Positions 7,178 through 64,000 of a DNA stretch of 64,000 nucleotides are shown one piece after another. Position 1 is the first letter of the stretch. The number at the start of each line of letters is the position of its first letter. The notes beneath the pieces are model-generated. The model had not been told where the DNA came from. It saw only the letters and a program-made list of their open reading frames with translations, and searched no databases. Source of the DNA: Micromonospora sp. NBC_01699 (lineage in GTDB: Bacteria; Actinomycetota; Actinomycetes; Mycobacteriales; Micromonosporaceae); NCBI RefSeq assembly GCF_036250065.1, contig NZ_CP109199.1, positions 1,178,001 through 1,242,000 of the forward strand. The letters are read 5' to 3'. A program made the position numbers and the translations under genes.

Positions 7178-7666
7178 GTGCTGAGCATCGACCGGGCGAT
7201 CCGCGACGCGATCGTCGCGCATGCTCGTCGGGACCATCCCGACGAGGCCTGCGGTGTGGTCGCCGGCCCGGCCGGCAGCGACCGGCCGACCCGACACATC
7301 CCGATGGACAACGCCGCCCGCTCGATGACCTTCTACGAGTTCGACTCGATGGAGCACCTGCGGGTGTGGCGGGAGATGGACGACCGGGACGAGGAGCCGG
7401 TGGTGATCTACCACTCGCACACCGCGACCGAGGCGTACCCGTCCCGGACCGACGTCTCCTTCGCCGGTGAGCCGGGTGCCCACTACCTGCTGGTCTCCAC
7501 CCGTGACCCGGACGCCGAGGAGATCCGTTCGTTCCGCATCGTGGACGGCGTGGTCACCGAGGAGCCGGTCCAGGTCGTCGAGGCCGGGGTGGACCCGCAC
7601 GCCGTGCAGTCCTACATGTTCGGGCAGAGCCCGACGACGGTCGACTACGAGTGTTCCGGCCGCTGA
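7178..7666 (+). CDS. mec: JAMM/MPN+ metalloprotease, CysO-cysteine peptidase
   Basis: A 162-residue zinc metallopeptidase with a complete JAMM signature: Glu23 (DEACG), His79 and His81 (YHSHT), then Pro88-Ser89 and Asp92. In M. tuberculosis, Mec (Rv1334) releases newly made cysteine from the C-terminus of the sulfur carrier CysO; related proteases trim tails from such carriers to expose Gly-Gly. It precedes cysO and cysM on the same strand, so the three form the CysO-dependent cysteine pathway. The GTG at 7178 is used. Because the next gene, cysO, has a long C-terminal tail, this enzyme may also have a maturation role here (inference). Confidence 0.93.
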   Translation: MLSIDRAIRDAIVAHARRDHPDEACGVVAGPAGSDRPTRHIPMDNAARSMTFYEFDSMEHLRVWREMDDRDEEPVVIYHSHTATEAYPSRTDVSFAGEPGAHYLLVSTRDPDAEEIRSFRIVDGVVTEEPVQVVEAGVDPHAVQSYMFGQSPTTVDYECSGR

Positions 7667-7738
7667 CCCGTTCGCGGGTGGCGCCCTGTCCGTAGTCCCT
7701 CCTTTCCCCGAAACCGTCGCATCTCTAGGAGTAACACC

Positions 7739-9099
<1,361 letters not shown>

Positions 9100-55518: not shown

Positions 55519-56631
55519 CTAACGGTTCTTGTGGCCCTCGCCCATGAAAGCCTTCACCGCAGACCGGATTGCGTCAGCGTGAAGATAAATATCGTCAATA
55601 GAGTCGATCAGATGGCGAGTCTCCGTCTTGTCGGCGTCGAACGTGCCAACGTACTTGCGGGCCTTTCCGTTGAAATGTAGCCGCGCGATGGGCTTACGGT
55701 TGTTGTCGTCGAGTATGACTGCGAAGTATGACTTTGCGTCACGACCCACAATACGTTGGGGCTTGACCTCGCTACATGCGATCGCCTTGATGATCTGGTA
55801 GCCGGTCAGTTCTTCAAGCGTGGTTTCCACCTCTGTGTCACGGGCGACATCGTTCAGTGCGACCTCTTCGCTCTCGAACACTTCGGCGGACGTCTCGGCG
55901 ACCTGCTTGGGAAGGCTTGTGTAAAGTGCGCCCTTCAGGCGTTCGTTCACTTGATCTCTGACGAACTGCGAGGCAGCCTTGGCAACGAGTGACCTGAACT
56001 GTTCACGCCTCTTCTGAGTGAACGAACCCTCGTACACTCTTGTCGCGAAGAACCTGACCCACTCATCCTCGGGCTCCTTGAACTGCGCCGCCATCAAACG
56101 CTTGATCTGACCGAGATACTTCAACTCTTCGGCCGCGTTGATGATGGAGTCGAGATCGAATACTTCCTTTGTGAGCTTACGTAGTTCCGGCAGCAGGGTG
56201 TCGTCGATGTCTTCCAAGTCCAGCACGAGGAACGGCTTGGCATCCATCTTGTTGGGGGCGTCGAGATCGGTGTAGAAATGGTAGACCTGTCCGTTGGTGA
56301 GGACAGCGATCCGTGCATTCGTAACCGAGAAGTATCGATAAAGCTGAGTCGCGTGTTCAATTTTCAGGGAGTCGCGCGGCTGCTTGCATTCGATGAGGAT
56401 CTGCACCTCGCCGGCATGCATGATCGCGTAGTCGACCTTCTCGCCCTTTTTGGTCCCGACGTCGGCGGTGAACTCCGGGATGACCTCCAGGGGATCGAAG
56501 ACGTCGTAGCCGAGGATCATCGAGATGAACGGCATGACGAAAGCATTCTTGGCAGCTTCTTCCGTCTGAATCGCGTCCCGCTGATTCCGGACCTTCGTGG
56601 CGAGCGCGGCGACCCGTTCATCGAACTCCAT
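55519..56631 (-). CDS. Orphan restriction-type nuclease domain protein (HsdR N-terminal-like)
   Basis: A 370-residue protein beginning with the N-terminal nuclease domain found in type I restriction HsdR subunits. PD-(D/E)xK residues are Asp67 (KVDYAI) and Glu81-Cys-Lys83 (ILIECKQPRDSLKIEHATQL), followed by a conserved YFSVTNARIAVLTNG strand. The helicase motor of HsdR is absent, and no hsdM or hsdS gene is nearby. A C-terminal domain (LTGYQIIKAIACSEV to IARLHFNGKARKYVGTFD) resembles nucleic-acid or degradation-sensor modules often attached to such standalone nucleases. Base composition is clearly lower in GC than both neighbours, which indicates recent transfer. The ATG is at 56631. Confidence 0.82.
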   Translation of the reverse strand: MEFDERVAALATKVRNQRDAIQTEEAAKNAFVMPFISMILGYDVFDPLEVIPEFTADVGTKKGEKVDYAIMHAGEVQILIECKQPRDSLKIEHATQLYRYFSVTNARIAVLTNGQVYHFYTDLDAPNKMDAKPFLVLDLEDIDDTLLPELRKLTKEVFDLDSIINAAEELKYLGQIKRLMAAQFKEPEDEWVRFFATRVYEGSFTQKRREQFRSLVAKAASQFVRDQVNERLKGALYTSLPKQVAETSAEVFESEEVALNDVARDTEVETTLEELTGYQIIKAIACSEVKPQRIVGRDAKSYFAVILDDNNRKPIARLHFNGKARKYVGTFDADKTETRHLIDSIDDIYLHADAIRSAVKAFMGEGHKNR

Positions 56632-57036: not shown

Positions 57037-57201
57037 TCAGTTGAGCCGAATGACGGTGAGGACGCCGGCGTGGTCGGAGGTCCAGGCGTTGGTGTACGGG
57101 TTGGACTTGGAGGGGGTGCCTTCCCGGTTGGCGTCGGAGGACAGGACGGTGAGGGGTACCGGTAGTTGCTGGACGATTCGTACCGCGTCGAAGGAGCGTT
57201 C
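57037..57201 (-). pseudogene. 3' remnant of an endonuclease/exonuclease/phosphatase-family gene
   Basis: Directly after the regulator's stop, a frame of about 55 codons on the same strand reads RSFDAVRIVQQLPVPLTVLS, then SDANREGTPSKSNPYTNAWT and SDHAGVLTVIRLN before a TGA. The SDHAGVLT ending is the catalytic Ser/Asp-His motif at the C-terminus of EEP-fold nucleases or phosphatases. The rest of the gene is missing: further upstream this frame lies inside the regulator. It is therefore a truncated gene end left at a rearrangement boundary. Confidence 0.6.
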
Positions 57202-58243
57202 AGCGCATCCGTGCCGGCTCTCCGATCGGACGTTCCTCGTCCAGGCTGGCGTTGGCGAGGAGGTAGCCGAGTTGTAGGCGATTCTGTGCGCCCAGGCTGC
57301 CCATGATGTCGGCGATGTGCCGCTGGCAGGTACGCAGCGACAACCCCACCCGCTGGGCGATCTTGTGGTCGGTCTGGCCGCTGATCAGTAGTGCGGCGAT
57401 GGCCTTGCGGACACCGGTCACGGCGGCCAGCGTGTCCCGCCGGTGGTTCCGGGTCGGCAGCGGTGTGGCCCCGTTCCAACAGCGCTGGAAGCTGTCGACC
57501 ATGAAGGTGAGGAAGCTGGGATCGCGTACGACGCTGGCGCCGTCCAGCGATCCCGGCAGGCCGATCACGGCTACCCGGCGGTCGAAGAGCAGGCAGCGGG
57601 CGAAGCCGTCGGCGGTGGTCCGTACCTCGCCGCCGAGCGCCGTCACGTGTTCGACGTAGGCGACCGTCGGCGGGCTGAACCTGGCCGTGTGCTGGTACAG
57701 CGTGTGCATCCGTACGCCGCGTCGGAGCAGGTTGTCGGTTCGGCTGAGGCTCTCGGCGAGCACCTCCTCGGGGCGGGCGCCACCGGGTTGCGAGGTGAGG
57801 ACCTCCTCCTCCGCCTCGGCGGCGAAGCCGCTTATCAGCTCGCGTACCTGGGTGAGGTCGGGCACCGTCTGGGTCTGGTACCGACTGCGGCGCTGGTGGA
57901 GGCTGTGCTCGTACGCCTCGGTCAGGGCGTCCAGTTCGCCGCGCAACTGGCTGACCGAATCCTGAACGGTGTTGATCTGGCGTTGCAGGGGGCTCAGGAC
58001 GCGTGCTCGGGCTATATCGGGTGAGATGGGGCTGAAGTGGGTGGGGTCCGTTTCGTGCGGTTGGAGGAGACCAATTCTTACCAGCCGGTTAATGGCGGCA
58101 ACCATTTTTTCCGGCGCCATCGACAGACTTGTCGATGCTGTCATTTGGTCGGTTTGGTGCCGAGTCAGGGCATCTATGTAGACAAGACGGGCATCTTTAT
58201 CAAGTTGCGGTACGGCAGGTAGAGATTCAGTCTGGTTTGTCAT
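57200..58243 (-). CDS. TrmB/LuxR-type transcriptional regulator
   Basis: The product is 347 residues. It has an N-terminal winged-helix-like segment (LVYIDALTRHQTDQMTASTSL to AAINRLVRIGLLQPHETDPT), a helical, coiled-coil-prone middle (ARARVLSPLQRQINTVQDSVSQLRGELDALTEAYEH), a sensor region (RRGVRMHTLYQHTARFSPP; CLLFDRRVAVIGLPGS) and a C-terminal LuxR-type helix-turn-helix (IAALLISGQTDHKIAQRVGLSLRTCQRHIADIMG). Proteins of this build often sit beside actinobacterial natural-product or peptide clusters. It diverges from the GNAT-hypE-hypF operon and is its likely regulator. The ATG has GGGGGAGCGACC upstream. Confidence 0.82.
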   Translation of the reverse strand: MTNQTESLPAVPQLDKDARLVYIDALTRHQTDQMTASTSLSMAPEKMVAAINRLVRIGLLQPHETDPTHFSPISPDIARARVLSPLQRQINTVQDSVSQLRGELDALTEAYEHSLHQRRSRYQTQTVPDLTQVRELISGFAAEAEEEVLTSQPGGARPEEVLAESLSRTDNLLRRGVRMHTLYQHTARFSPPTVAYVEHVTALGGEVRTTADGFARCLLFDRRVAVIGLPGSLDGASVVRDPSFLTFMVDSFQRCWNGATPLPTRNHRRDTLAAVTGVRKAIAALLISGQTDHKIAQRVGLSLRTCQRHIADIMGSLGAQNRLQLGYLLANASLDEERPIGEPARMR

Positions 58244-58835
58244 GGTCGCTCCCCCTCATGTTTCCGCCAGCAAAAACATGCGCCCTCTGTTTGCCTAGCC
58301 TGTCTCGCTGCCGCCGGGCGATCATATTCTCGCCTTAGCGATCCGCTAGCGTCTATGACTGGGGTAAGTTGATCATGCATCACGTGGCGTGTTCTTCGGC
58401 GATGGTCAACCTCGGTGCGACGGGCGTTCGTCGCCTCGCCGACCTTGGCTGGGGGAGAAATGCCTCGTAGTTGGTCTTATGGCACTTATGCCCCTCCGAT
58501 GACCAAAGTTCCGCAAGCGCGTCGATGATTTGCTGCTCAAATTCGAAACGGGGTTTCCGCGACCGGGACAAGGGTGCCGAAGGAATGCAGCAAGAGCACC
58601 GGTTCGATCGCGAACTGCACGAGCGACACATCGCGAACTGCACGAGCGACACATCGTGTCGGCATGACCGACCAGGAGATCGACGCGATCCGTTCCCCCT
58701 GCGGCGCTCGGCACCAACCTGGTCACCCGACCCTCGCCGATCTGACCGACCCCGAAGCGGCTCCGCCCGCTGCGGGGCCGCCTGCCCGCGTGCCCCGCAG
58801 TGCAACTGCCGTACGCGTTTTTTCGGAGGTTGTCT
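58244..58835. other. Long divergent intergenic region upstream of the hypE-hypF operon
   Basis: 592 bp with lower GC than the flanks, presumably holding both divergent promoters. It contains a 23-bp tandem duplication (58608-58655) and an 84-codon frame (58585-58839) with seven cysteines whose TGA overlaps the GNAT ATG as ATGA. That frame has only moderate third-position GC, so it is not called a gene. A second frame from ATG 58664 starts with good codon use (MTDQEIDAIRS) but then decays. Confidence 0.55.
58608..58655. repeat. 23-bp tandem duplication
   Basis: GCGAACTGCACGAGCGACAC-ATC occurs twice in direct succession (58610-58632 and 58633-58655), with matching flanking bases on the left. 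It lies in the promoter/leader region of the GNAT-hypE-hypF operon. Confidence 0.92.
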
Positions 58836-59405
58836 ATGAAGTACGACTGGCCAACCGAGCTGTCGCTAAAGGACATGCGCGAGATGATCGGCCTGATGAA
58901 CGAGGTGGCGCTCAAGGAGATGACGCTGGGCTTCACCGAGCCGCTGAACGACGAGGACGGGCTCGCGCTCATGCGCGCCTTCGACGCCGACCTGCGCCGG
59001 GGCGCCCTCGAACTGCTCGCCGTACGGACCGACGACGGTGAGATCGTCGGCATGCTCACCCTCGCCCGTGCTCCGCTGCCCGCTCGGCGGCACGTGGTGG
59101 ACCTGCGTCGATGCGTGATCAAACCGTCCCACCGGGGGCAGTTGCTGCTGGAGGGGTTCGGGCAGGCCGTTCGCCGGATGGCCGAGATGGGCTGCGACGT
59201 CATCACACTCGAAGTCCGCGACGACGGCCCGAAGCAGCTCTGGCACCGCCTGGGCTTCCAGGAGTACGGCCGGCTCCCCGACTACGCCCGCAAGAACGGC
59301 GAACCCGTGACCGGGCACTTCATGTACGCCAGCCGGGTCGAGCTCGAAGAGCACTTCCGCCTGACCGGTAGCTGGCTGCACACGCCCGAGTCCGTGCCCG
59401 CCTGA
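58836..59405 (+). CDS. GNAT-family acetyltransferase of the hypE-hypF operon
   Basis: The product is 189 residues. A GNAT fold is shown by ELLAVRTDDGEIVGMLTLARAP (beta4), VVDLRRCVIKPSHRGQLLLEGFGQAVRRMAE (acetyl-CoA loop, with H-R-G-Q-L in place of the usual Q/R-x-x-G-x-G/A) and VITLEVRDDGPKQLWHRLGFQEYGRLPDY. The altered pyrophosphate loop suggests weakened or different acyl-CoA binding. The ATG follows CGGAGGTTGTCT. It is the first well-supported gene of a rightward operon, with 48 bp to the isochorismatase-like gene. The substrate is unknown; in this setting a biosynthetic intermediate is as likely as a self-protection target. Confidence 0.87.
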   Translation: MKYDWPTELSLKDMREMIGLMNEVALKEMTLGFTEPLNDEDGLALMRAFDADLRRGALELLAVRTDDGEIVGMLTLARAPLPARRHVVDLRRCVIKPSHRGQLLLEGFGQAVRRMAEMGCDVITLEVRDDGPKQLWHRLGFQEYGRLPDYARKNGEPVTGHFMYASRVELEEHFRLTGSWLHTPESVPA

Positions 59406-59453
59406 CGCGCGTCCCTCGCCCCGTCCACTCCCACCTCCCGTTAGGGCCCCGCC

Positions 59454-60038
59454 ATGTCGAAGATCGCCGTGCTCACCAACGACCTCCAGTACGAACTCGT
59501 GGAGAAGAACCCCGAGCGGGTCGCCGCGGTCGCCGCCGCGACCTCGCACTTCGCCGCCTTCCTCGACGGCATCCGGCGCCGTGGGCACCACGTCTTCCAC
59601 CTTCAGCTGATCAACGACCCGGACGACCCGAACGCCGAGCGCTACGACGGGTACCTACCGGTGCAGCGGGGCACCCGGGGTGCCCAGGTCATCGAGGAGT
59701 TCCTCGCCCCGGAGGACGCCGTGGTGGAGAAGAACAAGGACAGCGGGTTCTACGAGACCGACCTGCACGACCGGTTGCAGGCCCTCGGCGTGGACACCGT
59801 ACTGGTCACCGGCATGCAGACCCAGATCTGCGTGCAGACGACCGCCGCCGACGCCTTCTTCCGCGGATACAACGTGTGGGTCCCGTCCGACTGCGTGGTC
59901 TCCGCCCGGCCCGAGGATCGCGACCGCGCACTGGAGTGGCTGGCCGGCTACTGCGCCACCGTCGTCCCCTCCGACGAGGTGCTGCGGGTGCTGGACAGCG
60001 AGGGAGAGCTTCCCCGCAAGGCGATCAAGACCCCCTGA
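59454..60038 (+). CDS. Isochorismatase-like cysteine hydrolase
   Basis: A 194-residue hydrolase of the isochorismatase/nicotinamidase fold. The catalytic triad is visible: Asp (VLTNDLQYELV), Lys (VVEKNKDSGFYETDL) and Cys (VTGMQTQICVQTTAADAFF), the last after the conserved cis-peptide region. Members hydrolyse amides (nicotinamide, ureido acids, biuret) or vinyl ethers. With HypE and HypF downstream, a substrate containing a carbamoyl, amide or nitrile-derived group would fit, but this is inference. ATG at 59454; the gap to hypE is 33 bp. Confidence 0.88.
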   Translation: MSKIAVLTNDLQYELVEKNPERVAAVAAATSHFAAFLDGIRRRGHHVFHLQLINDPDDPNAERYDGYLPVQRGTRGAQVIEEFLAPEDAVVEKNKDSGFYETDLHDRLQALGVDTVLVTGMQTQICVQTTAADAFFRGYNVWVPSDCVVSARPEDRDRALEWLAGYCATVVPSDEVLRVLDSEGELPRKAIKTP

Positions 60039-60071
60039 CCCAGTCGACCGCCCGGCGAAAGGAACCTCCCC

Positions 60072-61097
60072 GTGACCGCGAGCACCGACCCAGGTGACCG
60101 GATCGTCCTGGACCACGGCACTGGCGCGCAACTGAGCCACGAGCTGCTGGATCTCATCACCGAGACGCTGGGTGACGTCTACGTCGGGGTCATGGAGGAC
60201 AGTGCCGTCCTCACGGTCGAGAGCACCCGGCTCGCGATGACCACCGACTCGTTCGTCGTCGACCCGCCCTTCTTCGGCAACGGCGACATCGGCAAGATCG
60301 CCGTCTGCGGTACGGTCAACGACCTCGCCGTCTCCGGCGCGACCCCGCGTTACCTGACCCTGGGGATGATCCTGGAGACCGGGCTGCCGATCGCCCGGCT
60401 GGTCCAGGTTCTCACCTCGATCCGGGAGACCGCCCGCGAGGCCGGTGTGCAGATCGTCGGCGGCGACACCAAGGTGGTCCGGGCCGGCGAGGCCGACCAG
60501 ATCTACCTGAACACCGCGGGTGTCGGCGTCTTCTCCCGCGAACCCCTGCGGATGTCCGACGTACGCCCCGGCGACCTGGTCATCCTCAGCGGGCAGCTCG
60601 GCAACCACACCATCCACCTGCTCTCCATCCGCGAGGGGCTGGGCTTCGAGGCCCGGGTGAGCAGCGACTGCGCGCCGCTCAACAACATGCTCGACGGGGT
60701 CTTCGCCAAGACCGCACCGGGCGTCGTCCGCTCCATCCGCGACGTCACCCGGGGCGGCCTCTCGGCCGTACTGCACGAGTACGCCGAGCGCGTCGGCCGG
60801 GTCATCGCCTTCGACGCACCGGCACTGCCGATCCAACCCGAGACCGCGATGGCCGCCGACATGCTCGGCATCAACCCGATCCACTGCGCCAACGAGGGCT
60901 GCGTCGCCCTGATCGTCGACCCGGCCGCCGAGCAGGACGTGCTGGCCGCCCTGACCGCTCATCCGTACGGGACGCACGCGGTCACCGTGGGCGTGGTCAC
61001 CGACCGGGTCGGCACCGAGGTGGTGATGCGGGACGCGGACGGCCGCGAGTCCGTGGTCGAGGAGCTGCGGGGCGCCGAACTCCCGCGACTGTGCTGA
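60072..61097 (+). CDS. hypE: HypE, carbamoyl dehydratase (protein-thiocyanate forming)
   Basis: A 341-residue ATP-dependent dehydratase of the PurM/AIRS fold. It receives a carbamoyl group on its C-terminal cysteine from HypF and dehydrates it to a protein thiocyanate, the CN donor for the NiFe-hydrogenase iron. Evidence: ALTVESTRLAMTTDSFVVDPPFFGNGDIG, VCGTVNDLAVSGATPRYLTLG, IVGGDTKVV and RDVTRGGLSAVLHEYAE. The C-terminus is ELPRLC, matching the essential PR-x-C end with the acceptor Cys as the last residue. It should therefore be active. The GTG at 60072 follows GAAAGGAACC. hypF starts 7 bp after its stop. Confidence 0.95.
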   Translation: MTASTDPGDRIVLDHGTGAQLSHELLDLITETLGDVYVGVMEDSAVLTVESTRLAMTTDSFVVDPPFFGNGDIGKIAVCGTVNDLAVSGATPRYLTLGMILETGLPIARLVQVLTSIRETAREAGVQIVGGDTKVVRAGEADQIYLNTAGVGVFSREPLRMSDVRPGDLVILSGQLGNHTIHLLSIREGLGFEARVSSDCAPLNNMLDGVFAKTAPGVVRSIRDVTRGGLSAVLHEYAERVGRVIAFDAPALPIQPETAMAADMLGINPIHCANEGCVALIVDPAAEQDVLAALTAHPYGTHAVTVGVVTDRVGTEVVMRDADGRESVVEELRGAELPRLC

Positions 61098-61104
61098 GGG
61101 CGAA

Positions 61105-63537
61105 ATGAGCGTCGAGATCGAGGGCGGTGGGACCGGGGGCGGTGCGATCGAGGGCGGCGGGACCGGGGGCGGTGCGATCGAGGGCGGCGGGAGCGTCGGA
61201 CCGGGCACCGGGGAGGTGTGGCGGGTCCGGGTCACCGGTGTCGTGCAGGGCGTCGGCTACCGCCCGTTCGTCTACCGGCTGGCCCACCGGTACGCACTCT
61301 CCGGCTGGGTCTACAACGATCCGGAGGGGGTGCTGGTCGAGGCGGCCGGCCCGGTCGACCTGCTGACCCGGTTCGCGGCCGAGCTGAGCAGCGGGGCGCC
61401 CGAACTGGCAAGGGTCGACGACGTACGGGTGACCCGGGGCCTGCCGCCCGACCCCGACGCGGACGGCCGGTTCGTCATCGTCACCAGCCGCCAGGCGGGC
61501 AGCCGTACGGCACTGGTGCCGGCCGACACCCACGTCTGCGTCGACTGCCTCGCCGAGCTGCGCGATCCCGCCGACCACCGGTACCGCTACCCGTTCATCA
61601 ACTGCACGAACTGCGGCCCGCGCTACTCGATCGTGCGGGACCTGCCGTACGACCGGACGCAGACCACGATGGCGACCTTCCGGATGTGCGTACGCTGCGA
61701 GACCGAGTATCGCGACCCGCTCGACCGGCGCTACCACGCCCAGCCGAACGCCTGCCCGGCCTGCGGGCCGAGGCTGCTCTACGCGACCGGGCCGGACTCG
61801 CCCGAGGTCGCGGTCGGCGATGACGCGCTGCGGCGCTGCGCCGAGGCGCTGGCCCAGGGGCGGATCGCGGCGATCAAGAGCGTCGGCGGGTTCCACCTGG
61901 CCGTCGACGCCAGCAACGCCGAGGCCGTGGCCCGGCTGCGGCGGCGCAAGCGTCGGGACTCGAAACCGTTCGCGGTGATGGCGCGGGACCTCGCGACCGC
62001 CCACCGGCTGGTCCACCTCGAACCGGCCGAGGTGGACCTGATCTGCTCGCCGGCCCGCCCGATCCTGCTCGCCCGCAAGCGGGCCGGTTCCCTGCCGGAG
62101 AGTGTCGCGCCCCGCAACCCCAACCTCGGCGTGATGCTGCCCTCGGCGCCGCACCACCACCTGCTGCTCGACGAGCCGGGACTCGGCACCCTCGTAATGA
62201 CCAGCGGCAACATCTCCGGTTATCCGATCGCGTACCGGAACGAGGAGGCGCTGGAGCAGCTCTTCGAGATCGCCGACGTGATGCTCTACCACGACCGGGA
62301 CATCGAGATCCGGGTGGACGACTCGGTGGTCCGGCTCTCCACCCACCCCGAACTGGAGCGGTCGCTGCTCACCTTCCTGCGCCGGGCCCGGGGCTACGCG
62401 CCGTACCCGGTCGACGTCGGGCGGCCGTTGGCCACGGTGGTGGCCTACGGCGCGGAGTTGAAGACGACAGTGGCGCTGAGCAGCGGTAACCGGGTCTATC
62501 TGAGCCAGCATATCGGCGACCTGAAGAACGACGAGACCTACGCGTCGCACCGCCGGGCCGCCGAACACCTGGCCGGTCTCTACGAGATCCGGCCACAACT
62601 GCGGGCGTACGACCTGCACCCGCAGTTCCGTTCCACCAGGTCGGCGTCGGCCGGTGACGCCGAGGAACCGGCGACCGAGTTCGTGCAGCACCACCACGCG
62701 CACATGGCGTCGTGCATGGCCGAGCACCGGCTCACCGGCCCGACGCTCGGTGTTGTCTTCGACGGGGCCGGCTACGGCGAGGACGGGACGATCTGGGGCG
62801 GGGAGTTCCTGCTCGGCGACTACGCGTCCGTACGGCGGGTGGCGCATTTGCGACCACTCGCGCTGGTCGGCGGCGACCAGGCGGTGCGCGAGCCCATCCG
62901 GACCGGGCTCGCCCTCGCCCTCGACGCCCTCGACGACCCCGACCTGGTCACGGCGGCGTTCCCGGTGCTCGCCACCCTCTCCGAGCAGCACCGGCACGTC
63001 TACGGCCGGATGGCGGCCCGTGGCATCAACTCGCCGATGACGTCGAGCATGGGTCGCCTCTTCGACGGCATCGCCGCGCTGCTCGACGTCTGCGTCCGGG
63101 CCGAGTACGAGGCACAGGGGCCGATCGAGCTCGAAGGGCTGCTGGAGCGCGACCTGAAACCGGACCGGGCCTACCACTTCGACGCCGAGGTCACCGGCGG
63201 GGTCACCCAGCTCGACCCCCGGCCGGTGGTCCGCGCGGTCGCCGCCGACCTGGCCGCCGGGATCGACCTGCCCCGGATCAGCCGCCGGTTCCACACGGCC
63301 GTGGTCGATGCCGTGACCAGGCAGTGCCTGGCGGTACGCGACACCACCGGGGTCGACCGGATAGTCCTCTCCGGTGGTGTCTACCTGAACGAGTTCCTGC
63401 TGGTCAATTGTATGATCGACCTCGCCCGGCAGGGTCTGACCGTGCACTGCCACCGGCAGGTGCCGACCAACGACGGAGGGATCGCCCTCGGCCAGGTGCT
63501 GGTCGCGGACGCCCGTACCCAGACAGGAAACCGGTAG
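61105..63537 (+). CDS. hypF: HypF, carbamoyltransferase
   Basis: An 810-residue enzyme that converts carbamoyl phosphate and ATP to carbamoyl adenylate and transfers the carbamoyl to HypE. Domains in order: acylphosphatase (VQGVGYRPFVYRLA, residues 47-60, Arg53), two zinc-finger units (HVCVDCL and CTNC; CVRC and CPAC), a YrdC-like domain (RIAAIKSVGGFHLAVDA; LVMTSGNISGYPIA) and a Kae1-like domain (VQHHHAHMASCMAEH; VFDGAGYGEDG; LSGGVYLNEFLLVNC). All are complete. An extra Gly-rich repeat leader of about 30 residues precedes the first domain; GTG at 61216 would omit it. The next gene begins 3 bp past its stop. Confidence 0.95.
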   Translation: MSVEIEGGGTGGGAIEGGGTGGGAIEGGGSVGPGTGEVWRVRVTGVVQGVGYRPFVYRLAHRYALSGWVYNDPEGVLVEAAGPVDLLTRFAAELSSGAPELARVDDVRVTRGLPPDPDADGRFVIVTSRQAGSRTALVPADTHVCVDCLAELRDPADHRYRYPFINCTNCGPRYSIVRDLPYDRTQTTMATFRMCVRCETEYRDPLDRRYHAQPNACPACGPRLLYATGPDSPEVAVGDDALRRCAEALAQGRIAAIKSVGGFHLAVDASNAEAVARLRRRKRRDSKPFAVMARDLATAHRLVHLEPAEVDLICSPARPILLARKRAGSLPESVAPRNPNLGVMLPSAPHHHLLLDEPGLGTLVMTSGNISGYPIAYRNEEALEQLFEIADVMLYHDRDIEIRVDDSVVRLSTHPELERSLLTFLRRARGYAPYPVDVGRPLATVVAYGAELKTTVALSSGNRVYLSQHIGDLKNDETYASHRRAAEHLAGLYEIRPQLRAYDLHPQFRSTRSASAGDAEEPATEFVQHHHAHMASCMAEHRLTGPTLGVVFDGAGYGEDGTIWGGEFLLGDYASVRRVAHLRPLALVGGDQAVREPIRTGLALALDALDDPDLVTAAFPVLATLSEQHRHVYGRMAARGINSPMTSSMGRLFDGIAALLDVCVRAEYEAQGPIELEGLLERDLKPDRAYHFDAEVTGGVTQLDPRPVVRAVAADLAAGIDLPRISRRFHTAVVDAVTRQCLAVRDTTGVDRIVLSGGVYLNEFLLVNCMIDLARQGLTVHCHRQVPTNDGGIALGQVLVADARTQTGNR
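61116..61193 (+). repeat. 30-bp tandem repeat encoding a Gly-rich leader of HypF
   Basis: The unit GATCGAGGGCGGYGGGACCG-GGGGCGGTGC occurs 2.6 times at the start of hypF and encodes IEGGGTGGGA repeats. The near-identity indicates recent expansion. Confidence 0.9.
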
Positions 63538-63539
63538 CC

Positions 63540-64000
63540 GTGAGCGCAGAGGTGGCAGTTCACAGCGATGAGGCGGCGGCTCGCGGCGGTGCCGTGGCGA
63601 GCACCCATGACGTGCCGATGGACAGTCCGATCCGGACCGACGGCTTGGTGATCGGCGACGATGCGTACGCCTTCGTCCGGGCTCGTGAGTCCAGCGCCCG
63701 GACGTACGCCAACGACGTCGACCGGGTGCTCGGCTACGGCCGGCTGGCCCGGGTGCAGGACACCGACGGTCGGGTCTACCTGGACTGCCTCTCGGCGGCC
63801 GGCACCCTCGCCCTCGGGCACAACCATCCGGCGGTCGACACCGCCGTGCGCGAGTATCTCGACTCGGGCGGGTTGCAGCAGGCACTGGACCTGACCACAC
63901 CGGCCAAGTACCGCTTCCTGCGTACGCTCTACCGGCTGCTGCCGGCGGGTTTCGCCGCCACCGCGAAGGTGCAGTTCTGCGGTCCCAGCGGCGCGGACGC
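63540..64000 (+). CDS. Class III PLP aminotransferase, diaminobutyrate--2-oxoglutarate type, N-terminal part
   Basis: The gene continues past the right edge; 153 residues are visible. After about 45 residues of leader come RARESSARTYANDVDRVLG, DTDGRVYLDCLSAAGTLALG, HNHPAVDTAVREYLDSGGLQ, LDLTTPAKYRF and VQFCGPSGADA, which closely follow the N-terminal part of 2,4-diaminobutyrate aminotransferases. The PLP lysine lies outside the window. Such enzymes make diaminobutyrate or related diamines for siderophores and other specialised products. GTG at 63540 begins 3 bp after hypF, so translation is coupled to the HypE/HypF genes. Confidence 0.88.
   Translation, partial: MSAEVAVHSDEAAARGGAVASTHDVPMDSPIRTDGLVIGDDAYAFVRARESSARTYANDVDRVLGYGRLARVQDTDGRVYLDCLSAAGTLALGHNHPAVDTAVREYLDSGGLQQALDLTTPAKYRFLRTLYRLLPAGFAATAKVQFCGPSGAD

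Follow-up and report, generated by a model that had tools for sequence, protein, structure and literature searches.

A HypE-HypF pair coupled to an isochorismatase-like hydrolase, in a genome without HypD: a candidate CN-supply module for specialised metabolism in Micromonospora

In a 64,000-nucleotide stretch of DNA from Micromonospora sp. NBC_01699, here called the window (positions 1178001-1242000 of a single-contig genome of 8,280,328 bases), one operon-like run holds genes for a GNAT acetyltransferase, an isochorismatase-like hydrolase (ICH), HypE, HypF, and a diaminobutyrate-type aminotransferase (DAT). The conserved unit within this run is ICH-HypE-HypF, and the genome that carries it gives no match to HypD or to a NiFe-hydrogenase large subunit. 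We view the operon as probably, if with some reserve, a stand-alone module which supplies CN groups to specialised metabolism, with the acceptor here likely being derived from diaminobutyrate. An earlier note on this DNA, made from the sequence alone, had proposed that the CN or carbamoyl group is diverted into a small molecule. Gene context supports that diversion well, while the chemical transfer itself is inferred rather than demonstrated.

HypF carbamoylates a cysteine of HypE by way of a carbamoyl-adenylate, and HypE then dehydrates the product with ATP (PMC12134894). An isothiocyanate form of the HypE-bound group has been proposed as well (PMC4506123). Among the open-access matches listed, the literature describes HypE-HypF solely as the supplier of the cyanide ligand of NiFe-hydrogenase, and none of those matches, in the portions available, connects a small-molecule pathway with HypE or HypF; that search did not extend to preprints or to subscription papers. 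The window HypE exceeds the cut-off of its family profile and has the terminal PRxC cysteine (as PRLC), K134, and the glutamate of the ANEG motif. In HypF a domain scan detected every domain of the four-domain carbamoyltransferase, and five motifs checked are all present, with each found in 35 to 49 of 49 relatives. The HypF protein opens, before its acylphosphatase domain, on a glycine-rich repeat (EGGGTGGGAI twice; window 61120-61190). Intergenic gaps are 48 bp between GNAT and ICH, 33 bp between ICH and HypE, 7 bp between HypE and HypF, and 2 bp between HypF and DAT. The reading frames and the last three of these gaps are as previously given, as is the intactness of HypF and of the C-terminal PRLC of HypE, with the refinement that PRLC marks a subfamily, the hydrogenase-type HypEs compared ending instead in PRIC.

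As the assembly is a single contig of completeness 100 (contamination 0.51), the absence of a gene can be tested. Searches of the window genome gave no match to HypD (PF01924), to the NiFe-hydrogenase large subunit (PF00374), or to the HycI maturation protease (PF01750), where the same searches matched 4, 5, and 3, respectively, of 14 control genomes, with E. coli among those matched. The genome has a single HypE copy. None of the neighbouring genes examined was recognised as HypA, HypB, or HypC, no genome-wide search having been made for these three. Called genes were read for about 15 kb to the right of the window edge, three of them besides DAT also being domain-scanned, without a hyp or hydrogenase gene among them. 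The earlier note had offered as its alternative that the rest of a hydrogenase locus lies just past that edge, which is rejected because the genome-wide searches for HypD, large subunit, and HycI came back empty. Its remark that no hypA/B/C/D or hydrogenase structural gene is visible holds genome-wide for HypD and the large subunit and, among neighbours, for HypA, HypB, and HypC.

Linkage of HypE to HypD was followed in 200 genomes of the organism's own family, its own included. HypE (E 1e-30 or better) is present in 60 of these, two of which, i.e., the window genome and the relative genome G092, have HypE of the window type (80% identical to one another). HypD is present in all of the other 58 genomes, whose 59 HypE loci are at 40-46% identity to the window HypE. 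At 59/59 of those loci HypD lies within 263 bp of HypE (median 95 bp); in control genome G141 HypD is split over two contigs, with a 204-base piece next to HypE at the contig end. Because HypD stands alongside at every one of these family loci, the situation in the window is unlike that of hydrogenase HypE in its own family.

A scan with the window HypE yielded 68 loci (L033-L100), and the subfamily as defined here consists of 54 loci (L001, the window; L101, G092; L033-L083; and L085), with the best segment at 56-82% identity. An unrooted tree of 95 HypE proteins holds 51 of the subfamily, 33 of hydrogenase type, and 11 without the C-terminal cysteine; both the tree and the counts of HypE residues omit L071, L078, and L082 (near copy or broken frames). 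A branch of length 0.79 with support 100/100 separates all 33 hydrogenase-type HypEs from the rest. The subfamily is not exclusive in that tree, as a long branch within it carries the 11 cysteine-less proteins. Subfamily proteins end in PRLC (51/51) and those of hydrogenase type in PRIC (33/33), and positions 69-70 are mostly GN versus PG. K134 and the ANEG glutamate are both retained, in no fewer than 50 of the 51 subfamily proteins and in 33/33 of hydrogenase type. These two residues align with K134 and E272 of TkHypE, to which Tominaga in 2013 reportedly assigned roles in dehydration. By its sequence, then, the window HypE belongs to a distinct HypE subfamily. An ordinary second hyp operon is rejected both by the HypE tree and by the HypD linkage.

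The subfamily is rare and patchy. One of 199 other family genomes carries it, as does one of 395 others taken as a sample of the phylum (E 1e-90), and it was not found in the two sampled genomes of the same genus. Its carriers are Actinomycetota and Pseudomonadota, along with one metagenome-assembled genome (MAG) of Bacillota in which no ICH accompanies it. The cysteine-less HypE-like proteins, from Streptomyces (L090-L100), have ends such as PERLL, with the gene situated at about 7.1 or 10 kb of each stretch and with no HypF match within the stretch examined around it. That of L092 adjoins AfsA-, SARP-, and AMP-ligase-type genes.

HypD was also sought in the carriers of subfamily HypE, namely in 50 of 53 genomes (G092 plus 49 locus genomes; those of L071, L082, and L052 were omitted). 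There is no HypD match in 30/50, among them the genomes of L070 and L083, which also are without ICH near HypE. Single absences are weak, as many of these genomes are drafts; those of the window and of G092 are single contigs. In the remaining 20 genomes 21/21 counted HypD copies have a HypE of their own within 223 bp, and 20 of the 41 HypE copies either share no contig with HypD or are over 10 kb away from it. That count of HypD includes one partial copy (G246) and excludes a weak partial match in G207:C11 (30.8 bits, positions 77-174), which is not on the contig of the triad. A second HypE over the curated cut-off occurs in two genomes that gave no HypD match (G210:C48:534278-535276 and G218:C212:79198-80202). 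The earlier note had named beforehand two observations that would speak against its hypothesis, a hyp/NiFe-hydrogenase cluster downstream and an operon always beside hydrogenase genes in relatives. Neither was found, HypD and the large subunit being absent from the window genome and, in relatives, HypD being either absent (30/50) or elsewhere (the other 20).

What does accompany subfamily HypE is HypF and, nearly always, ICH. HypF follows HypE in 54/54 loci (L078 and L082 having broken frames). ICH lies just upstream on the same strand in 49 of these, is divergent and about 1 kb away in three (L079-L081), and is not in the stretch examined at two (L070, L083). Over 49 loci protein distances correlate at r 0.84 for ICH-HypE, 0.96 for HypE-HypF, and 0.86 for ICH-HypF, with 0/999 permutations as high.

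The predicted structure of the window ICH (pLDDT 92.5) has an isochorismatase-like fold, and the protein carries the Asp-Lys-Cys triad (D10, K93, C126). Best fold matches of the model are to an uncharacterised isochorismatase-like hydrolase and to N-carbamoylsarcosine amidase, followed by maleamate amidase and by triuret and biuret hydrolases, at approximately 20-31% identity. ICH falls in none of the curated equivalogs compared (biuret, RutB, nicotinamidase), the best being BiuH at 53.4 bits versus a cut-off of 370. Cys126 is invariant in 53/53 sequences, and D10 and K93 are kept in 46/53, counts which include G092 twice (as L004 and L101). The seven that differ are the Nocardia loci of what is called type D below (L037, L042, L044, L050, L053, L054, L060), which have G10 and R93 while keeping Cys126. 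L038, labelled Nocardia but of type A, keeps all three catalytic residues. Glycine and arginine at these positions, alongside a retained cysteine, suggests for the type D proteins a role other than hydrolysis.

The surroundings of the triad are diverse. Roughly ten kinds of metabolite-like cluster harbour subfamily loci, with gene families read in representatives and, elsewhere, from clusters of similar genes; Pfam was applied to one or two representatives per type, and several family names are of 'like' grade, i.e., under curated NCBIfam cut-offs. Representative flanks include nonribosomal peptide synthetase (NRPS), ATP-grasp ligase, aminotransferase, MFS, carbamoyl-phosphate synthase large chain, and aspartate-kinase-like genes. 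Type A (10 loci including G092, plus the eroded window copy) has a haem-oxygenase-like diiron oxidase (HDO)-like gene, GNAT, ICH, HypE, HypF, DAT, c17, MFS, M20, and two ATP-grasp genes, with slight variation, e.g., MFS is absent in L038. Type B (10 loci) has the triad, two ATP-grasp genes, MFS, and, in nine, a diaminobutyrate-decarboxylase-like protein. Type C (8 loci) has NRPS, the triad (L083 being without ICH), a pyridoxal-phosphate protein resembling serine hydroxymethyltransferase or fluorothreonine transaldolase and, in seven, a glutamine-amidotransferase-like hydrolase. Type D (7 loci, Nocardia) joins the triad to an SBF transporter in five. Type E (4 loci) has an epimerase, a DegT aminotransferase, NUDIX, inositol-phosphatase-like, and MFS genes, with the carbamoyl-phosphate synthase large chain in L055 and L058. 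Type F (3 loci, L079-L081) has an HDO-like gene (DUF3865, under the Pfam cut-off), HypE-HypF, c67, divergent ICH, and agmatinase-like and MFS genes, and type G (2 loci) the triad, a HAD phosphatase, and MFS. Others are ICH-HypE-HypF-DAT runs in Actinosynnema, two Solirubrobacterales MAGs, and Photobacterium; a GNAT-triad run in Paraburkholderia, where DAT appears broken (L069, L071) or, in L085, a 38% identical DAT lies 4 kb upstream; L074, with the triad, an aspartate-kinase-like gene, DAT, two ATP-grasp genes, a luciferase-like oxidase, and a glutamate-mutase-like pair; and L070, with HypE-HypF at a contig end.

Some of these neighbours are suggestive as to chemistry. In L079 an agmatinase/arginase-like gene (L079:7336-8352, minus strand) adjoins the ICH of the HDO-HypE-HypF cluster and gives a hint of guanidine chemistry. 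In L074 B12-binding and MutE-like genes of the glutamate-mutase type (L074:18545-20348) stand in one run with the triad, DAT, and the aspartate-kinase-like gene, as if methyl-aspartate were a precursor. The protein c67, which follows HypF in L079-L081, yields a poor structure model (pLDDT 43.4).

The mechanism that we propose begins with family chemistry for which the key residues are present here: HypF and HypE would convert carbamoyl phosphate to a protein-bound thiocyanate through ATP-driven dehydration. Lacking a HypD scaffold, the CN group would not be placed on iron but would instead go to a small molecule, with the cysteine enzyme ICH perhaps accepting it or steering it to a small nucleophile. 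In DAT-bearing types that nucleophile would most likely be 2,4-diaminobutyrate, made from aspartate semialdehyde by DAT and N-acetyl-protected by GNAT, and the product might be an N-cyano, guanidino-like, or nitrile amino acid; this part of the proposal is held less firmly. Diaminobutyrate is suggested as the acceptor by the DAT family itself, by the aspartate-kinase-like gene of L074 (185.5 bits on TIGR00657, cut-off 208.7), by the decarboxylase-like gene of type B, and by an M20 protein related to N-acetyl-diaminobutyrate deacetylase (228 bits, cut-off 550). Finishing and exporting a short peptide would, in complete clusters, be the work of a diiron oxidase, an M20 deacylase, two ATP-grasp ligases, and an MFS pump. 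As the nearest solved relative of the HDO-like protein is MboA (E 4e-19), the product of complete type A clusters probably is a short modified peptide.

It is unlikely that HypE serves instead as a carbamoyl carrier only, with the carbamoyl group being moved to a small molecule (as ureido or carbamate) and ICH acting as an editing or recycling N-carbamoyl hydrolase. N-carbamoylsarcosine amidase and the biuret and triuret hydrolases are indeed among the nearest ICH folds. Near-universal retention of K134 and of the ANEG glutamate, residues whose reported role in dehydration is given above, argues otherwise. Carbamoylation of diaminobutyrate is known, for padanamide, but a single OTCase-like enzyme carries out simple N-carbamoylation without HypE (PMC6022934), and since that enzyme alone suffices, a dedicated, ATP-using HypE would be pointless for the purpose.

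A number of points weigh against the proposal that the operon supplies CN to a metabolite. That transfer is inferred from gene context and residues, with product and enzyme activity predicted only. The nearest ICH structures of known function, as matched by the model, hydrolyse N-carbamoyl compounds or amides and are not transferases. A catalytic role for ICH is not universal, because the seven type D proteins have lost two catalytic residues and L070 and L083 are without ICH nearby. Types without DAT exist (NRPS, sugar, Nocardia, Citrobacter), so diaminobutyrate is not the acceptor everywhere. Correlated protein distances are what would be expected of three genes that move together, and shared descent in part contributes to them. 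Lastly, without its oxidase and tailoring genes the window copy may be inactive.

That erosion is best seen against G092, which retains a complete type A cluster, HDO and ATP-grasp ligases included. The window instead has an HDO remnant in pieces, 71.6% identical to the G092 gene over 197 columns (58440-58633) and 87.9% over 33 (58658-58690), interrupted by a stop codon and spread over three different frames. No other HDO match was found in the window genome, by a search that ran without a positive control, and no convincing match to the c17, MFS, M20, or ATP-grasp genes was found in the window or in the stretch examined past DAT. M20 homologues elsewhere in the genome are only 36-46% identical. 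Judged from these alignments, the window copy is eroded, having lost the HDO gene and the downstream tailoring genes of G092 while keeping the core five. Ratios of nonsynonymous to synonymous substitution (dN/dS) versus G092 are 0.18 for GNAT, 0.12 for ICH, 0.26 for HypE, 0.25 for HypF, and 0.22 for DAT, with no stops in any; as these average both lineages, recent decay could be missed.

The window operon as a decaying, now productless relic of a once complete cluster is a possibility that we rate as rather doubtful, and one which is compatible with a CN-supply role, since that role concerns the module. The HDO remnant with no other copy found, the five genes after DAT in G092 that are not found near the window DAT, and the M20 homologues at only 36-46% identity all favour it. 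The five open core genes with their low dN/dS (0.12-0.26, again as a both-lineage average) speak against it, as do four-gene ICH-HypE-HypF-DAT runs without HDO in Actinosynnema and Solirubrobacterales.

The oxidase also raises the question of whether HypE-HypF might give a CN ligand to the metal of some non-hydrogenase enzyme, e.g., the neighbouring diiron oxidase, an explanation to which we give almost no credence. HDO-like genes do flank the triad in type A (9 scan loci plus G092) and in L079-L081. The other scanned cluster types, however, have no metalloenzyme in common, the HypD scaffold is absent, and a review of HDOs, in the portion available, shows no CN ligand (PMC13108848). A constant core with variable flanks could also be expected of one diffusible product, that is, of a module making free cyanide or thiocyanate as poison or signal, with ICH serving in release or detoxification. 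This is very unlikely, as flanking ligases, NRPS, and aminotransferases indicate built-in use, and release needs no dedicated ligases.

Of the closest known systems, [NiFe]-hydrogenase maturation is matched by HypE and HypF above curated cut-offs, the C-terminal cysteine, the dehydration residues, and full HypF domains, but not by the genome without HypD, large subunit, and HycI, nor by a HypE which is apart in the tree, ends in PRLC, and has ICH as neighbour. N-carbamoylsarcosine amidase and the biuret and triuret hydrolases share the ICH fold and Asp-Lys-Cys triad, whereas ICH is only about 20-31% identical to them and lies beside HypE-HypF, with only the Cys of the triad left in the seven type D Nocardia loci. 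O-carbamoyltransferases of the GdmN/TobZ type form a further comparison. Like HypF, such enzymes use carbamoyl phosphate by means of Kae1-like and YrdC-like domains (PMC6022934), but they carbamoylate the product directly, have the reverse domain order, and do so with no HypE. Mangotoxin-type HDO plus ATP-grasp clusters (mboABCDEF), in which MboA forms the alkyne of mangotoxin, a peptide (PMC13185094), resemble the complete relatives in having an HDO-like gene, ATP-grasp ligases, and an exporter. They differ in that no hydrogenase or carbamoyl protein is named in the available part of the mangotoxin paper, and the window HDO is a remnant. The nitrile synthase AetD and aldoxime routes are alike in a possible nitrile-type outcome, but AetD makes its nitrile from the amino acid itself (PMC11611611), whereas here CN would derive from carbamoyl phosphate.

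A broader proposal, to which we incline only tentatively and with slightly more doubt than belief, is that a mobile ICH-HypE-HypF cassette is a general cyanation system. Carrier-bound CN from carbamoyl phosphate would be moved to amines or carbons of natural products by a cysteine enzyme of the ICH fold, serving as a cyanotransferase and not as a hydrolase, and would give nitriles, cyanamides, or guanidines independently of oximes and of amino acid oxidation. Were CN shown to reach a metabolite, this would amount to a reaction route of a new kind, and enzymatic cyanation from carbamoyl phosphate, if true, would be a general building tool. If the triad supplies CN, compounds bearing nitrile, cyanamide, or guanidine groups are to be expected, and it becomes testable which protein can take CN from HypE in place of HypC-HypD; a HypE ending in PRLC with an adjacent ICH offers a handle for genome mining.

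Table 1. Features of the operon and its left flank (window positions; scores in bits with curated cut-offs).
Feature	Position	Strand	Basis
Divergent regulator (REG)	57200-58243	-	C-terminal LuxR-type helix-turn-helix, marginal (GerE 23.6, cut-off 23.5)
HDO gene remnant, in pieces	58440-58690	+	DNA match to G092 HDO gene (L101:7491-8291)
GNAT acetyltransferase	58836-59405	+	Pfam Acetyltransf_1 26.4, cut-off 20.7
ICH, isochorismatase-like cysteine hydrolase	59454-60038	+	Pfam 123.8; D10/K93/C126 present
HypE, PRLC subfamily (predicted carbamoyl dehydratase / CN carrier)	60072-61097	+	TIGR02124 404.8, cut-off 251.6; C-terminal Cys341
HypF carbamoyltransferase	61105-63537	+	TIGR00143 723.6, cut-off 466.1; acylphosphatase, Zn fingers, YrdC, Kae1-like
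DAT, class III diaminobutyrate-type aminotransferase	~63540-64964, crossing window edge at 64000	+	TIGR00709 504.9, cut-off 401.6

The acetyltransferase and the diaminobutyrate-type aminotransferase were recognised as such beforehand, and both score above their cut-offs (Table 1). The GNAT start is taken as the ATG behind GGAGG, with a longer, GTG-started frame running from 58800. DAT is under two narrower cut-offs (EctB, 363.3 versus 552.2 bits; PRK06938, 620.9 versus 671), and an EctABC-like ectoine route is rejected, as DAT is under the EctB cut-off and GNAT gave no match to EctA with E at or below 0.001. The divergent regulator had been called TrmB/LuxR, of which a domain scan supports the LuxR part marginally: it gave no TrmB match, the C-terminal LuxR domain being the sole one found. 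A homologue 62% identical holds the same place in G092, and homologues at 41-51% identity occur in 8/9 type A loci of the HypE scan, with none seen in L038.

An HSDR_N restriction-like gene (window 55519-56631, minus strand) and an Mrr-like nuclease gene (L001:8040-9179, plus strand) stand on the operon's two sides, and the operon stretch is of lower GC, 0.642 at 56-60 kb versus 0.68-0.74 in other 4-kb blocks. The operon stretch with its flanking nuclease-type genes may be an island. Far from the operon, three genes lie in a row (window 7178-9099): one for a JAB-type protease, a small one, and one of PALP (cysteine-synthase) type. Judged by its JAB-type and PALP members, the trio is reminiscent of a CysO-CysM-Mec cysteine route.

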